NCBI GenBank assembly: GCA_021825225.1
Contig: JAKAIH010000009.1
Span: forward strand, 1-15,283
Direction of reading: 5' to 3'
DNA: 15,283 bases
Origin: Pseudomonadota bacterium
Lineage (GTDB): Bacteria; Pseudomonadota; Gammaproteobacteria; Burkholderiales; SG8-39
Shown in pieces: positions 2,873-8,980 of this stretch. The notes beneath the pieces are model-generated. The model was given only the letters and a program-made list of their open reading frames with translations. It did no database searches and was not told where the DNA came from. Positions within the stretch are counted from its first letter, which is position 1. Each line of letters opens with the position of its first letter. Both the position numbers and the translations under genes were made by a program.

Positions 2873-3166
2873 CTAGGCGCCATTCGCGCGCTGCTTTTCC
2901 GCCTCCAGCTGCGACGGCGTGACCCGCGCACGGGCCAGATACTCGCGCAGGATTTTCACCGCGGAACGATCCAGGGTATTGCCGTGATGCGGCCGGTGCA
3001 GAACGTCCTCGTGGCCGTTGAGTTTCACGCGCAGGCGCGCGCCCGAGAGCGATTCGACTTCGGCCCCCAGATGAAGCAGCAGCGACTCCACCTCGCGCCA
3101 GTGCAGGTTGCCGCTGATAGGGTCGCGGAATATGGCTTGTATCAGGTGTTCGTGTTTGTGGCTCAT
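2873..3166 (-). CDS. HicA-fold small protein, probably not an active toxin
   Basis: The protein has 97 residues and starts MSHKHEHLIQAIFRDPISGN. It then follows the HicA double-stranded-RNA-binding-like layout: HWREVESLLLHLGAEVES (about 22-39), SGARLRVKLNGHEDVLHRPHHGN (about 41-63) and AVKILREYL. HicA toxins are mRNA interferases with a catalytic histidine in a G-S-H motif. Here the aligned place reads G42-A43-R44, so that histidine is missing, although the later PHHGN segment is kept. No HicB antitoxin gene lies on either side. I therefore infer a domesticated or RNA-binding member rather than a toxin, although databases are likely to label it HicA toxin. The ATG at 3166 is preferred because residues upstream of it in the frame look random. 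Confidence 0.75.
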   Translation of the reverse strand: MSHKHEHLIQAIFRDPISGNLHWREVESLLLHLGAEVESLSGARLRVKLNGHEDVLHRPHHGNTLDRSAVKILREYLARARVTPSQLEAEKQRANGA

Positions 3167-3339
3167 CGCAGCGGGCCTCGTGCAGGATAGCCTGCACTCA
3201 TGATAGCCGAAGCCGCGAATGCGTGTCGGTGCGCGCACCGCCGCCCGGGCCCAGGCGGTAGCTTAGGTGCGCGAGTTCTGCTCCAGGCTTACTTTTTCAT
3301 TCCGTCCTTGGCCTTGGTTGGTGGGTGAATGAAACGCGC

Positions 3340-3379: not shown

Positions 3380-4159
<780 letters not shown>

Positions 4160-4165
4160 CGCTCC

Positions 4166-4762
4166 TCAGCGGCCGCGGATCATGGCCAGCAATGTGCGCG
4201 GCACCAGCGCCACCATCGCCAGATGCACCATGACGAAAGCGACCATCGCCGTCATGGCGAAAAAGTGCACGCGGCGCGCGCTCTCGTAGCCGCCCAGCAG
4301 TTCGCGCAACAGGGGAAACTGCACCGATTTCCACAGCACCAGGCCGGACAGCACCAGCAGCAGCGCATCCGCCACCACGAACAAGTAGGCTGCGCGCTGC
4401 ACCGCGTTGTACTGCCGCAGATCCGCATGCGACAGCCGGCCGCGCAGTGCGGCGAGCAGGTCGGCGGCGATGGCCCGCGGTGACAGCGGGAAGAATTTGT
4501 GCGCGAACCTCCCGCTGGCCACGTTGCACACCAGGTAAATCAAGCCGTTGGCGGCGAGCAGCCACATCGCCGCGAAGTGCCACATGATCGCGCCGCCGAG
4601 CCAACCGCCGAGCGTGATGCCCTTGGCGAACTGGAAGCCGAACAGGGGCGAGGCGTTGTAGATGCGCCAGCCGCTCGTAACCATGATCAGCACCGCAAGC
4701 GCATTGATCCAGTGCGTCGCACGCAGCCAGGCCGGGTGTATGGGGTGGGTGGCGTCGGTCAT
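4166..4762 (-). CDS. Membrane cytochrome b (b561/b6-like), partner of the molybdoenzyme
   Basis: The protein has 198 residues and four predicted transmembrane helices, near residues 17-36, 53-80, 124-145 and 165-188. Histidines placed like b-haem ligands are H17 in helix 1, H62 in helix 2, and H166 and H180 in helix 4, fitting a dihaem cytochrome b of the b561/thiosulfate-reductase class. It should carry electrons from quinol, or back to quinone, to the periplasmic molybdoenzyme encoded 6 bases downstream. It is not MsrQ/YedZ, the usual MsrP partner. I chose the ATG at 4762; a TTG at 4778-4780 is a weaker option. A sigma-F-like promoter lies about 310 bases upstream, separated from this gene by a decayed coding remnant. 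Confidence 0.87.
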   Translation of the reverse strand: MTDATHPIHPAWLRATHWINALAVLIMVTSGWRIYNASPLFGFQFAKGITLGGWLGGAIMWHFAAMWLLAANGLIYLVCNVASGRFAHKFFPLSPRAIAADLLAALRGRLSHADLRQYNAVQRAAYLFVVADALLLVLSGLVLWKSVQFPLLRELLGGYESARRVHFFAMTAMVAFVMVHLAMVALVPRTLLAMIRGR

Positions 4763-4781
4763 AAGCAGGTCCGGTTGCAAA

Positions 4782-5073: not shown

Positions 5074-5099
5074 TTCGCCGACCAGCGGCCGCCGGTTAC
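5074..5099 (-). promoter_or_regulatory. SigF-type promoter in front of the remnant, cytochrome b and molybdoenzyme genes
   Basis: On the minus strand, GTAACC (5099-5094) and CGAA (5077-5074) are separated by exactly 16 bases. The motif is preceded by GT, as at the msrB promoter. It begins 16 bases after the msrA stop, so it gives this operon its own start. The identical ten positions recur at 6359-6384 and 6446-6471. The pattern matches the Caulobacter sigma-F promoter as I recall it. Confidence 0.75.
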
Positions 5100-5114
5100 A
5101 CGGCCAAGCACGAA

Positions 5115-5744
5115 TTACTTGTCACCCCAGATTTCATGCACTCGCGCGTCCCTGCCGCAGCCGAACCGATAATAGTTATAACGAATCGGATTCTTGCGGT
5201 AGTAGTCCTGGTGATATTCCTCGGCAGGATAGAACGCCGAAGCGGCGACGATTTCAGTGTACACATGCCCGAATCTGCCGCTCTTCAGCAGGGCGTCGCG
5301 GCTTGCCTCGGCGACCTTGCGCTCCGCCTCGTTCTGCCAGAAGATCGCGCTGCGATACTGCGTGCCGACGTCGCAGAACTGGCGGTCCTTGACCGTCGGG
5401 TCTATGTGGTGCCAGAAGTAATCGACCAGTTTTTGATAGCTCAGCTTCGCCGGGTCGTAGCTTACGCGCACCGCCTCGGCATGTCCGGTGCCGCCGGCGC
5501 TGACCTGATCATAGGTCGGTTTCGGAGTCTTGCCGCCGGTATAACCGGATTCGGCCCCGATCACGCCCGGCAGTTTCTCGAAATCGGCTTCCATGCACCA
5601 GAAACAGCCGCCGGCGAAAATTGCCGTCGCAGTCGCCGCCGCGACCTGTGCTGGCCGTGCCGGCGGCGCGTCAGCGGCAAATCCAATGCCGCCTAGCAAC
5701 AGTACCAGCGCAGCGAATGCGGTAAAGCCCAAACGCGTCTTCAT
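5115..5744 (-). CDS. msrA: Peptide-methionine (S)-S-oxide reductase MsrA, exported
   Basis: The 209-residue protein reduces the S-epimer of methionine sulfoxide. The catalytic motif GCFWC has C47 as the sulfenic-acid cysteine; E53, SGYTGG, QYRSAIF and EEYHQDYY are further family blocks. C124 and C196 could act as resolving cysteines. Residues 1-23 form a Sec-type signal peptide (KTR, a hydrophobic core, then GFAADA), so it works in the periplasm, unlike the cytosolic E. coli enzyme. The ATG at 5744 has a strong GGAGGT six bases upstream. Its ATG overlaps the msrB stop as ATGA, so the pair is translationally coupled. A SigF-type promoter precedes msrB. Confidence 0.96.
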   Translation of the reverse strand: MKTRLGFTAFAALVLLLGGIGFAADAPPARPAQVAAATATAIFAGGCFWCMEADFEKLPGVIGAESGYTGGKTPKPTYDQVSAGGTGHAEAVRVSYDPAKLSYQKLVDYFWHHIDPTVKDRQFCDVGTQYRSAIFWQNEAERKVAEASRDALLKSGRFGHVYTEIVAASAFYPAEEYHQDYYRKNPIRYNYYRFGCGRDARVHEIWGDK

Positions 5745-6247
5745 GTGCGCACCTCCGGCAGCTTTTCCGCACGCGGCACAAATCTCAGCGCAACGCCGTT
5801 ATTGCAGTAGCGTTTGCCCGTTGGCCGCGGGCCGTCGTTGAACAGGTGGCCCTGATGACCGCCGCAGCGCATACAGTGGTATTCCGTGCGCGGAAAGATC
5901 AATTTGTAATCGGTCCTGGTCGCCACCGCAGCCGCCAGCGGCTCCCAGAAGCTCGGCCAGCCGGTGCCGCTCTCGTATTTTCTGCTGCTGTCGAACAAAG
6001 GCAGGGAGCAAGCGGCGCAGACGAAGGTTCCGTCGCGCTTTTCCAGATTAAGGGGGCTGGTGCCCGCGCGCTCCGTGTCCTCCTCGAACAATACGCGATA
6101 CGCCAACGGCGGCAATAGCGCCGCCCATTCAGCCTTCGACTTGCGCAAGGCCGGGACGGCGCCGTCTTTTGCCCCCGCGGGCCCGGCATTGACCAATTGC
6201 AATGCGGAAAATCCGCACAGCCATTTCAGTGATCGACGACGATCCAT
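5741..6247 (-). CDS. msrB: Peptide-methionine (R)-S-oxide reductase MsrB, exported
   Basis: The 168-residue protein reduces the R-epimer of methionine sulfoxide and complements MsrA. Two CxxC pairs, C77/C80 (CAAC) and C125/C128 (CMRC), form the usual structural zinc site. The catalytic cysteine is C148 in RYCNNGVAL. SGTGWPSF and GGHQGHLFNDGP are hallmark blocks. The N-terminus MDRRRSLKWLCGFSALQLVNAGPAGA looks like an export signal, possibly Tat because of the RRRSLKW stretch. The ATG at 6247 follows CCGGAGA at good spacing. It is the first gene of the msrB-msrA operon, with a leader of about 105 bases if the SigF-type promoter at 6359-6384 is used. I see no second, resolving cysteine in the usual N-terminal place. 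Confidence 0.95.
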   Translation of the reverse strand: MDRRRSLKWLCGFSALQLVNAGPAGAKDGAVPALRKSKAEWAALLPPLAYRVLFEEDTERAGTSPLNLEKRDGTFVCAACSLPLFDSSRKYESGTGWPSFWEPLAAAVATRTDYKLIFPRTEYHCMRCGGHQGHLFNDGPRPTGKRYCNNGVALRFVPRAEKLPEVRT

Positions 6248-6284
6248 AACATTCTCCGGATGAGTTGCCGCTGGCTCTGCCGCT

Positions 6285-6308
6285 GCGCGCCGGTGCGCCG
6301 GTGCGCCG
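6285..6308. repeat. Three tandem copies of an 8-bp unit in the msrB leader
   Basis: GTGCGCCG occurs twice exactly (6293-6300, 6301-6308) and once with one change (6285-6292). The repeat is followed by further GC-rich, partly self-complementary sequence. It lies in the presumed untranslated leader of msrB and could fold or vary in copy number. It may also be chance low-complexity sequence. Confidence 0.5.
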
Positions 6309-6358
6309 GCTGCGCATTGCGCCTGGGCGACAACACATTGACGCGCGATGCCAGGTAA

Positions 6359-6384
6359 TTCGGCGGAAGCTGGCGCACGGTTAC
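6359..6384 (-). promoter_or_regulatory. SigF-type promoter of msrB-msrA
   Basis: On the minus strand, GTAACC (6384-6379) and CGAA (6362-6359) are separated by 16 bases. Transcription should begin near 6352, about 105 bases before the msrB ATG. It shares GTGTAACC with the promoter at 5074-5099 and lies back-to-back with the plus-strand copy at 6446-6471. Confidence 0.78.
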
Positions 6385-6445
6385 ACGCTCGTGCACAATT
6401 AAACTGCCAGACTACGGGCCAGTATCCATCTTTTTCCCGCGGCTT

Positions 6446-6471
6446 GTAACCAAAGGCGTCGATGCAGCGAA
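6446..6471 (+). promoter_or_regulatory. SigF-type promoter overlapping the start of sigF
   Basis: GTAACC (6446-6451) and CGAA (6468-6471) are separated by 16 bases, identical to the two msr-side copies. It suggests autoregulation of sigF-nrsF. The -10 part lies inside the predicted coding region, six bases after the ATG at 6462, which raises a start-codon problem noted among the findings. Confidence 0.6.
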
Positions 6472-7034
6472 TGCAGGAGACAGGTCGGCTTAACGCGGGC
6501 GAAGCCAGGCTCAGGCATCTGCTGCTGCGCGGACTTGCCGGCGACGAGCCGGCCTACCATGCGTTTTTGCAGGAACTGAGCGCGCATTTGCGCGCATTCC
6601 TGCGCAAGCGTCTCGCCCGCTTGCCGGACGAGGTGGAGGACCTGGTGCAGGAATCGCTGCTGGCCGTACACAATCAACGTCATACCTACGACCCCGGACA
6701 GCCCTTGACGGCCTGGGTGCATGCGATCGCGAAATACAAGCTCGTCGATTTGCTGCGCCGGCGCGCGAAGCGCGACTTGCTCAGCGATCCGCTGGACGAG
6801 GAGTTCGGCTTTGCGACTGCCGGGGACACCGAGGCCGCAGATGCGCAGCGCGATCTGACGAAGCTGCTGGCGCACCTGCCGGAGCGCCAGCGTCTTCCCA
6901 TTGTGCACATGAAACTGGAGGGCCTGTCGGTAGCGGAAGCCGCAAAGCTGACGGGCATGTCGGAGTCGGCGGTCAAGGTGGGCGTGCACCGCGGCCTGAA
7001 GGCGCTGGCGGCGATGATACGAGGCGGCGCATGA
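6462..7034 (+). CDS. sigF: ECF sigma factor, SigF type
   Basis: The protein has up to 190 residues and the two-domain ECF layout. Region 2 spans about residues 30-100, with [15 protein letters not shown] followed by [18 protein letters not shown]. Region 4 spans about 130-185, with the helix-turn-helix [28 protein letters not shown]. The partner nrsF starts inside its stop codon (ATGA), the arrangement seen for SigF/NrsF in Caulobacter and for the reactive-chlorine-responsive SigF of Azospira. It directs RNA polymerase to stress promoters; the three GTAACC-N16-CGAA sites nearby are the likely targets. The start is uncertain. The ATG at 6462 has an AAGG element five bases away and the ATG at 6471 is an alternative, but a transcript from the overlapping promoter would begin after both. 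Confidence 0.9.
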
Positions 7035-7672
7035 GAACCGACGATCTGGTGACCATGCTGGCGACGGGGGCCGGGGCAGTGCACGCGAACCAGGCCGCGC
7101 GCCGCCATGTGGCGGCGATGGCGTGGGGAGCCTTGGGCGCGACGCTGCTGATGGTCGCCTTGCTCGGCCCGCGCCATGACCTGGCGCAGGCAGCGCTGCT
7201 GCCGATGTTCTGGGTGAAGCTTGTGTTTGCCGCTTGCCTCGCCGCGGCCAGCCTGGCTGCGGCTTTGCGCCTTTCACGTCCCGGCCAGCGGCTGGGCTGG
7301 GTACCGGGCGCACTGGCCGCGCCGGTGCTCGCAATGTGGCTGCTCGCGGCAATCGTGCTGGCGCGAGCCGACGCAGCACAGCGCGCAATCCTGTTCTTCG
7401 GCGATACCTGGGACGTGTGCCCCTTCCTGATCGCGACCTTGTCCGCGCCGGGCTTCATTGCGGCGATGCGGGCGATGCGCGAACTTGCGCCTACGCGCCT
7501 GCGCCTGGCCGGCGCGGCCGCGGGGCTGTTGGCCGGCGCAGTGGGCACGCTGGTGTATTGCCTGCACTGCCCCGAAATGGGGGCGCCTTTCATCGCCTTC
7601 TGGTATCTGCTCGGCATGCTGATCCCCGCCGGCGTCGGCGCCCTGCTCGGGCCGCGCCTGCTGCGCTGGTAG
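7031..7672 (+). CDS. nrsF: NrsF-family (DUF1109) membrane anti-sigma factor
   Basis: The protein has 213 residues and about six transmembrane helices, preceded by a short cytoplasmic N-terminus ([18 protein letters not shown]) that typically contacts the sigma factor. Two conserved cysteines stand out: C130 in WDVCPF, and C180 in VYCLHCPE together with C177. Their positions agree with the pair (131 and 181) reported as important in Caulobacter NrsF. NrsF holds SigF at the inner membrane and releases it under heavy-metal or chlorine oxidant stress in studied species. The start overlaps the sigF stop as ATGA, with GAGG six bases upstream, so production is coupled. The inducing signal here is inferred, not shown. 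Confidence 0.92.
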
Positions 7673-7783: not shown

Positions 7784-8980
7784 ATGCGCTGGCGCATCAC
7801 CTCGCTGCTGCTGAACCTCGCTCACGCGATCGACCATCTGATGCTGCTGGTGTTCGCGACCGCGGTGTCGGCCATCGCGCACGACTTCGGTGTCGGGCGC
7901 TGGGAAGACCTGATGCCCTACACCACCGGCGCCTTCCTCATGTTCGGCATCGGCTCCTTTCCCGCCGGGCGCCTCGGCGACCTGTGGGGACGGCGCGCAA
8001 TGATGCTCGTATTTTTCTTCGGCATGGGCGCCTCCGCCGTGCTGATCGCTCTTACCCGCACCGCCTGGCAACTGGCTTTGGCCTTGGGCCTGATGGGCGC
8101 ATTTTCGTCGATCTATCATCCGGTGGGGATCCCCATGCTGCTGCGGCATGCGCGCAAGCCGGGCATCACCATCGGCTTCAACGGCATGGCCGGCAACCTG
8201 GGTATTGCCGCAGCGGCCATATCGACGGGCTTCCTGGTTCAGTACGCGGACTGGAGGATGGCCTTCATCGTGCCCGGGCTCATCTCGATCGCCTGCGGCC
8301 TGCTGTTCATGAGAATCGCGCCGGCCGAGCAGGGCGCGCCGGGAAAGCAGACGGCAAGGCAGATCGAGCTTGCGCCGGCAACACGCAACCGGGTTTTCCT
8401 GGTGATGACCATGCTCGCGATCACCACCAGCATTCTGTTCAATTTCACCACCAACGGCAACGGTGAACTGCTCAAAGCCAGGTTGCCGATTCTGGTGCAG
8501 CAGCCGGCCCTGCTGGGGACGCTGCTCGCGGTGGTTTATGCGCTGTCTTCGGTGTCGCAGCTGGCCGTAGGGCGCCTGATCGATCGCTATCCGATACGCA
8601 ACGTCATGCTCGGCATCGTCGCCTGCCAGGGCCCGGTTTTCCTGCTCGCCGCGTTCAGCCAGGGATGGACGCTGTACGTAACCATGATCGCGTTCATGAT
8701 GCTGGTTTTTGGTTCCATCCCGTTTACCGACGCGATCATCGCGCGCTTCGTCGATGACAGCATACGCTCCCGCGTAAGCGGCATGCGCCTGGCCGTTTCC
8801 TTCGGCGTGAGCTCGATGGCTGTCTGGGCGCTCGGGCCCGCGGTCAAGGCGGCCGGTTTCGGCTTTGCCCTGCTGGCGCTGGCAGCCGTGGCCGCAGGCT
8901 CGCTCCTGATCACCTGGCAGTTGCCCGACGAACAGAGTATCCGCCGGGCCTCCGAGGCCCCCAGCCCGCAGGCTGCCTGA
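7784..8980 (+). CDS. Major facilitator superfamily transporter
   Basis: The 398-residue protein has about 12 predicted transmembrane helices, the standard MFS size. The loop between helices 2 and 3 carries AGRLGDLWGRRAMML, the classic G-x-L-x-D-x-x-G-R-R motif (about residues 60-75). A degenerate second copy, VGRLIDRYPIRNVML, appears in the second half. The ATG has GGGAG five bases upstream. The gene starts 111 bases after nrsF in the same direction, but no SigF-type motif precedes it, so it is probably separate from that operon. The substrate cannot be read from the sequence. Its sequence style (early HAIDHLMLLVFATAV, then IYHPVGIPMLLRHARKPG) resembles fosmidomycin-resistance-like MFS proteins, which is a weak hint only. 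Confidence 0.9.
   Translation: MRWRITSLLLNLAHAIDHLMLLVFATAVSAIAHDFGVGRWEDLMPYTTGAFLMFGIGSFPAGRLGDLWGRRAMMLVFFFGMGASAVLIALTRTAWQLALALGLMGAFSSIYHPVGIPMLLRHARKPGITIGFNGMAGNLGIAAAAISTGFLVQYADWRMAFIVPGLISIACGLLFMRIAPAEQGAPGKQTARQIELAPATRNRVFLVMTMLAITTSILFNFTTNGNGELLKARLPILVQQPALLGTLLAVVYALSSVSQLAVGRLIDRYPIRNVMLGIVACQGPVFLLAAFSQGWTLYVTMIAFMMLVFGSIPFTDAIIARFVDDSIRSRVSGMRLAVSFGVSSMAVWALGPAVKAAGFGFALLALAAVAAGSLLITWQLPDEQSIRRASEAPSPQAA

Follow-up and report, generated by a model that had tools for sequence, protein, structure and literature searches.

Does a 15,283-nt stretch of metagenomic DNA hold a SigF regulon for the repair of oxidised methionine in the cell envelope, and is that regulon a new version which works without a methionine-rich peptide? 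The stretch, hereafter the window, covers positions 1 to 15,283 of contig JAKAIH010000009.1 in GCA_021825225.1, a metagenome-assembled genome (MAG) of 3.13 Mb in 544 contigs, 84.67% complete, that belongs to the Burkholderiales lineage SG8-39. It encodes an extracytoplasmic function (ECF) sigma factor, SigF, with the anti-sigma factor NrsF, the methionine sulfoxide reductases (Msr) MsrB and MsrA, and a molybdoenzyme with a cytochrome b. The original prediction read these genes as possibly a distinct version of the chlorine or metal stress response, lacking a methionine-rich peptide. Our analysis indicates that the window very probably carries a chromosomal betaproteobacterial ECF16 SigF/NrsF locus that drives envelope methionine repair from three promoters, P1 to P3, and from which the peptide gene mrpX and a DUF1223 gene have largely been deleted (Table 1). 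The locus type is already known, and the window is a partly decayed example of it.

Table 1. Promoters, genes and gene remnants of the SigF/NrsF locus. Positions are those of the window; the export signals of MsrA, MsrB and the molybdoenzyme were judged by eye.
Feature	Position	Strand	Evidence
Likely 3' remnant of mrpX-type gene, TKAKDGMKK stop; start and most repeats gone	3289..3318	-	translation; alignment to relatives
Small sulfite-oxidase-type molybdoenzyme, Tat-like lipobox N-terminus, Cys145	3380..4159	-	PF00174 5e-30
Cytochrome b561-type membrane subunit	4166..4780	-	PF01292 1e-23
Remnant of exported thioredoxin-fold DUF1223 gene, CSSC domain deleted; 77 codons	4782..5015	-	both flanks align to five relatives
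P3, SigF-type promoter toward DUF1223 remnant, cytochrome b and molybdoenzyme	5074..5099	-	exact motif
msrA, signal-peptide-like N-terminus, GCFWC motif	5115..5744	-	PMSR 2e-62; TIGR00401 above cut-off; PDB relatives MsrA
msrB, export-type N-terminus	5741..6247	-	SelR 1e-41; TIGR00357 above cut-off
P2, SigF-type promoter toward msrB-msrA	6359..6384	-	exact motif; divergent motif in 69/80 named loci
P1, SigF-type promoter toward sigF-nrsF	6446..6471	+	exact motif; same place in 76/80 named loci
sigF, ECF sigma factor; true start uncertain	6462..7034	+	Pfam sigma70 r2 and r4; NF009188 306 bits, cut-off 250
nrsF (DUF1109), membrane anti-sigma factor, C130 and C180	7031..7672	+	PF06532 3e-68

A SigF-type promoter motif occurs three times in the window

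The motif GTAACC-N16-CGAA has three exact matches in the window, at precisely the positions and on the strands first reported. The original estimate of about 0.03 expected sites was close to the mean of 0.02 per shuffled window that we obtained from 200 dinucleotide shuffles, in which three matches were never reached. With up to two mismatches allowed, the window held 10 matches against 7.5 expected. This is chance level, and the signal is confined to the exact sites. Attribution of the motif to Caulobacter sigma-F was also correct, as the same GTAACC-N16-CGAA promoter is described there (PMC3511200). By its letters, it matches the published promoter consensus of ECF16 (SigF-type) factors, tGTAACc-N16-CGAA (PMC3420878). 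P2 leaves 112 nt between its -10 element and the msrB start. Each site had been placed next to msr-related genes or sigF, which is true, but the 5074 site (P3) is directed away from msrA.

Across the source genome as a whole the motif has little specificity. The genome-wide scan suggested in the original prediction returned six exact motifs against two for a reversed control, and the three outside the window do not resemble regulon members. Two are antisense within genes (L001, and L003 in an adhE-like gene). The third (L002, 1501-1526 on contig C41) lies about 87 nt before the start of an argC-like gene; judged by spacer letters, its like recurred among the matches of 14 genomes of the genus, source genome included, only in G005 (G005:C141). 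We rejected all three as members on these grounds. The description of the regulon as self-contained is plausible: outside the window one exact site stands before argC, the assembly lacks about 15% of the genome, and the genome scan covered exact sites only.

The promoters are conserved in related loci

We next compared the window with its relatives. Of 388 confirmed NrsF loci, the best 80, here called the named loci (L101-L180), were inspected, with the motif scored as GTAACN-N16-CG[A/T]A. Some share their records with other related genomes that we compared, and by contig names three assemblies contributed two loci each (L128/L151, L150/L153 and L161/L162). The last pair comes from a MAG labelled Klebsiella pneumoniae; its NrsF loci look betaproteobacterial, and the label is probably wrong.

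The motif stood at sigF in 76 of the 80 named loci, and a divergent motif was present in 69, where the first genes behind it differ. Across the 1.01 Mb of these loci, the exact motif occurred 132 times beside sigF and 12 times elsewhere. In the same DNA, each of 12 other spacings gave zero to seven matches and the reversed pattern one. Within the genus, P1 and the divergent motif (GTAACN form) were found in all nine loci with contig sequence over that region. P3 was found in five (G000, G002, G007, G010 and G012) of the six genus genomes with msrB and readable DNA beyond it, the other being G005. Intact DUF1223 genes in L040, L051 and L058 are preceded by it at the matching position, as is the one in L046, where it reads GTAACT; in L044 the DUF1223 gene behind it is cut by the contig end. 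The predicted promoter function of P1 to P3 is well supported by this conservation. The comparison of SigF-NrsF-msr neighbourhoods thus bears out the claim of a SigF regulon joining exported MsrB and MsrA with the molybdoenzyme, as far as an ECF16 promoter kept in relatives can suggest it.

Conservation in L101-L180 extends past the fixed bases. P1 spacers keep AAAGGC and ATGCAA, divergent-promoter spacers keep CGCC, and both promoters have G and C at positions 11-12. These letters could possibly mark an extra contact or the site of a second regulator.

SigF and NrsF

Family models assign SigF to the ECF sigma factors with regions 2 and 4. The protein encoded next to it scores 230 bits against PF06532 (cut-off 26.8) and 146 bits against the stricter NF042994, below its cut-off of 300. 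Its C130 and C180 are invariant in all 13 aligned sequences, window included, and correspond by number to C131/C181 of Caulobacter NrsF (PMC3511200) and C129/C179 of Bradyrhizobium OsrA (PMC3420878). The models and the conserved cysteines uphold the SigF/NrsF identification. NrsF was detected in 40 of 149 related genomes (own included; 37 over the cut-off) and in 10 of the 14 genomes of the genus. Proteins of this type restrain SigF-type factors in a cysteine-dependent manner, and SigF-type promoters drive Msr genes (PMC3420878, PMC3511200).

Downstream of nrsF lies a gene for a major facilitator superfamily transporter (window 7784-8980) with no motif listed before it; the protein is 87-93% identical in the same-genus loci L040, L043, L044, L050, L051 and L053.

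The molybdoenzyme is MsrP-like

The cytochrome b and molybdoenzyme genes stand behind P3. Cys145 of the molybdoenzyme is kept in all six aligned sequences, and its best PDB match is 1xdq, a bacterial sulfite oxidase. In MsrPQ, the membrane subunit MsrQ is ferric-reductase-like. The partner here is of the PF01292 cytochrome b561 type, not of the MsrQ type. Because of this partner, and because the molybdoenzyme scores 69 bits against an MsrP equivalog cut-off of 207, it is MsrP-like, yet not MsrPQ proper. With a score so far below the cut-off, activity on methionine sulfoxide is suggested by its gene company.

We assessed that company in the 52 named loci that extend 4 kb or more upstream of sigF, excluding 28 shorter ones. 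Genes were called by tblastn or small home-made hidden Markov models, MrpX by a pattern rule, and the co-occurrence counts ignore kinship. Cytochrome b, the molybdoenzyme and MrpX were each present in 33 loci (the molybdoenzyme being absent from 19), MsrA in 28, and MsrB and DUF1223 in 13 each. Thus cytochrome b, the molybdoenzyme and the methionine-rich peptide recur most, while MsrA, MsrB and DUF1223 come and go. In L067, which has a distant SigF (39%), one SigF-type promoter is followed by an unbroken series of msrA, cytochrome b, the molybdoenzyme and a methionine-rich peptide. The Dechloromonas and Propionivibrio isolates of L123 and L175 carry cytochrome b, the molybdoenzyme and mrpX downstream of the divergent motif. 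The row also varies among incomplete MAGs of the genus: the locus of L043 (G005) is without cytochrome b, molybdoenzyme and mrpX, that of L050 (G006) is without msrBA or mrpX, and L046 (G007) has no msrA match behind msrB. A HicA-type domain protein (PF07927) at window 2873-3238 adjoins the same operon in L040, L043, L050 and L051; no HicB model matched among the ten window proteins scanned.

The window retains likely remnants of mrpX and a DUF1223 gene

In agreement with the original prediction, we found no intact methionine-rich peptide in the window, but a likely 3' fragment of its gene is present. Relatives carry intact MrpX-type peptides with M-x-K-D repeats downstream of the molybdoenzyme, and pairwise local alignment to them gave the deletion junctions. 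The mrpX leader flank is kept in the window and aligns in five of five relatives; a short CCAAGG repeat and then the coding end follow. Between 18 and 20 of 21-23 bases of this coding end match the relatives. In two of the five relatives, L040 and L051, the match falls on the true 3' terminus of the gene; in the remaining three it falls on inner repeats. A TIGR02953 search gave no match in the source genome, while the same search was positive in six of the 14 genus genomes, and in G007, G010 and G012 mrpX adjoins the molybdoenzyme. Among the 52 loci, an MrpX-type peptide was present in 30 of 33 with the molybdoenzyme and in 3 of 19 others. Because the same gene row has the peptide in relatives and the window keeps an apparent 3' end, its absence is most simply explained as loss, with assembly error or a separate design less likely. 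This runs counter to the proposal of a distinct peptide-free version.

The small ORF behind P3 appears to be a second remnant. About 530-540 bp are missing relative to the DUF1223 genes inspected; what remains is the signal-peptide region plus some 45 C-terminal codons. Its start codon is GTG, not ATG, and lies 77 nt from the first Cys codon position, compared with 78 nt in four of four relatives. The motif GCSSCPPAD, present in all eight intact relatives checked, is gone from the window, and no DUF1223 match was found anywhere in the source genome. Intact genes in L040, L050 and L051 encode PF06764 proteins; the family has a thioredoxin fold and a PDB match, 2axo (PMC3091736).

DUF1223 as a possible recurrent SigF target

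DUF1223 is the fresh lead here. All 13 DUF1223-bearing loci among the 52 also have MsrA, compared with 15 of the 39 others, a Fisher value of 6e-5 that is overstated because relatedness is ignored. An order-wide survey found DUF1223 in 60 of 250 genomes. In the 30 best-scoring loci from these 60 genomes, GTAAC-N17-CGAA within 600 nt upstream and in the same orientation occurred in 5, and ten other spacings together gave 1. The motif preceded DUF1223 in three of the four genomes with NrsF and in 2 of the 26 without. Two counts from the same 30 loci speak against the lead: 25 have no SigF-type motif upstream, and MsrA or MsrB lies within ~3.6 kb in only one (L203), where the order is promoter, DUF1223, msrB, msrA and no sigF occurs in the stretch covered. 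As 29 of the best 30 have no Msr neighbours, DUF1223 is not tied to Msr in general and must have another role elsewhere.

We offer as a lead that SigF targets DUF1223 recurrently, though not universally, next to periplasmic MsrA and MsrB. The pattern fits a role as reductant for the exported MsrA/MsrB in SigF-bearing genomes. A further and doubtful proposal is that SigF loci bring their own electron supply, with DUF1223 reducing exported MsrA/MsrB and the b561-type cytochrome replacing MsrQ for the molybdoenzyme. The available text of the cited SigF/ECF16 literature does not name DUF1223 as a partner of MsrA/MsrB, and such a link may already be in print elsewhere.

Weighing the alternatives

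Several observations weigh against the proposed SigF/NrsF repair locus, to which the low MsrP score belongs. Eleven of the 80 named loci have no divergent motif and four have no P1. The genome-wide excess of the motif is modest, with 88 exact motifs against 60 reversed in the 14 genus genomes, and the four of these without an NrsF match still hold 16 against 12. With such numbers, the motif alone is a weak marker across a whole genome; clustering and placement carry the signal. In a class survey, the molybdoenzyme was found in 7 of 274 genomes (E < 1e-30), and L188 is the only one of the six other matches accompanied by SigF, NrsF and the motif. Near L189 lie an MsrA and a methionine-rich peptide, with no SigF/NrsF match, and the four weaker matches have neither SigF/NrsF nor Msr/peptide company. 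In Caulobacter, msrA homologues were unchanged by SigF (PMC3511200). The two deletions rest on one assembly of a fragmented MAG, and the mrpX fragment on ~23 aligned bases. The last point against the reading is the sigF start. Its ATG (6462) lies within P1, which is awkward for P1 as the sole sigF promoter. The next ATG (6471) is at the P1 end, and both are upstream of the expected start of a SigF-driven transcript. Either a second promoter gives a longer SigF, or translation begins further down. Bradyrhizobium ecfF presents the same conflict, with a transcription start that overlaps the annotated sigma start (PMC3420878).

These points bear differently on three other explanations. The sigF start favours one in which the motifs are real, yet the operons are mainly read from other promoters and the SigF share is minor. 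An ATG occupies this position in 44 of the 69 named loci that share the reading frame, and a second regulator or sigma factor has been proposed for basal sigF-type expression in Caulobacter (PMC3511200) and Brucella (PMC8315932). Against this, the -35 and -10 elements and their spacing are exactly preserved in beta- and gammaproteobacterial loci even though the spacers themselves differ in part, and the same motif stands before different first genes. This explanation is improbable. An MrpX-free chlorine/metal response, in which selection shaped MsrA, MsrB and the molybdoenzyme to act in the absence of a methionine sink, would account for the absence of an intact mrpX from window and genome and for the eight of 14 genus genomes (own included) without a TIGR02953 match, among them G005 and G006 with a readable locus. 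The likely 3' codons and leader in the window, and mrpX beside the molybdoenzyme in three other genomes of the genus, argue otherwise, and joint loss of mrpX and DUF1223 fits decay equally well. We consider this design quite unlikely. Both shortened genes might instead be assembly errors, with a full row of P3, DUF1223, cytochrome b, molybdoenzyme and mrpX in the living strain, which would otherwise be compatible with the SigF/NrsF repair locus. The 544 contigs, the repetitive mrpX and the single assembly make this conceivable. The junctions, however, share only ~6-7 nt by eye, which is probably below usual assembly overlaps, and the GTG start and the 77-nt distance of the DUF1223 fragment are differences of their own. 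Assembly error is unlikely on balance, and a partly decayed SigF/NrsF locus is the reading we retain.

Comparison with known systems

The claim of novelty is not supported, because ECF16 control of Msr (PMC3420878, PMC8315932) and similar islands (PMC4623255) are in print. In the hypochlorite system of Azospira suillum, SigF reportedly controls yedY1 and mrpX (PMC5748585). By gene content, the window shares with it the sigma/anti-sigma pair and the molybdoenzyme with its membrane subunit, and the window's relatives share the peptide (PMC5748585, PMC4623255, PMC8315932). In addition the window has msrBA and the DUF1223 remnant, and of mrpX it probably keeps just a fragment. A 2015 paper describes perchlorate islands with sigF/nrsF, yedYZ and mrpX as key genes; two of them, in Propionivibrio militaris MP and Dechlorobacter hydrogenophilus LT-1, also carry exported msrA and msrB. 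Its available text does not state SigF control of msr and does not mention DUF1223 (PMC4623255). On the window side, chlorite dismutase was not found. A perchlorate-island setting was rejected, with chlorite dismutase in none of the 14 genus genomes (own included) and in 7 of 14 control genomes.

Bradyrhizobium japonicum EcfF/OsrA resembles the window in its ECF16 sigma factor, two-cysteine DUF1109 anti-sigma factor, Msr targets (three enzymes, one predicted periplasmic) and near-identical promoter. It differs in having seven target units with separate locus numbers, and Bll1026/1027, not DUF1223, as proposed redox partners (PMC3420878). Caulobacter crescentus SigF/NrsF shares the promoter, NrsF and a YedY-type molybdoenzyme (YedY) as target, and differs in its other targets, the DUF692, DUF2063, DUF2282 and DoxX genes (PMC3511200). 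In Brucella melitensis, BcrS, paired with AbcS, controls bcrXQP. Divergent paired promoters, a methionine-rich peptide and an Msr system are common to both, and the Brucella system is induced by hypochlorous acid. It differs in its annotated MsrQ-type membrane partner, and the available text gives no MsrA/MsrB at its locus. Msr genes are common to several ECF16 regulons (PMC8315932).

A model for envelope methionine repair

The role in periplasmic methionine sulfoxide repair is suggested by the enzyme families and the published homologous systems. At rest, NrsF, a six-helix membrane protein in the homologues studied, would keep SigF bound. Oxidation outside the cytoplasm, probably sensed through or near the NrsF cysteines as evidence from Caulobacter and Bradyrhizobium suggests, would free SigF; reported inducers of homologues are hypochlorite, peroxide, singlet oxygen, chromium or cadmium (PMC3420878, PMC3511200, PMC8315932, PMC4623255). 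Freed SigF would then direct transcription at P1 of sigF and nrsF, at P2 of the exported MsrB and MsrA, and at P3 of the cytochrome b561-type subunit and the molybdoenzyme. MsrA and MsrB would reduce S- and R-methionine sulfoxide in envelope proteins. Judging from its family and gene company, the molybdoenzyme may do so as well, with quinol electrons probably passing through the cytochrome b. The ancestral row would also have held the thioredoxin-fold DUF1223 protein and the sacrificial methionine-rich MrpX, both largely deleted in this lineage.

In many beta- and gammaproteobacterial loci, one brief promoter signature appears to be tied to the extracytoplasmic repair of oxidised methionine. 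If DUF1223 does feed MsrA and MsrB, the window would be a natural experiment in which the methionine sink and this reductant were lost while three reductases were kept behind SigF promoters, and the question of what reduces these enzymes in the envelope would become directly testable.

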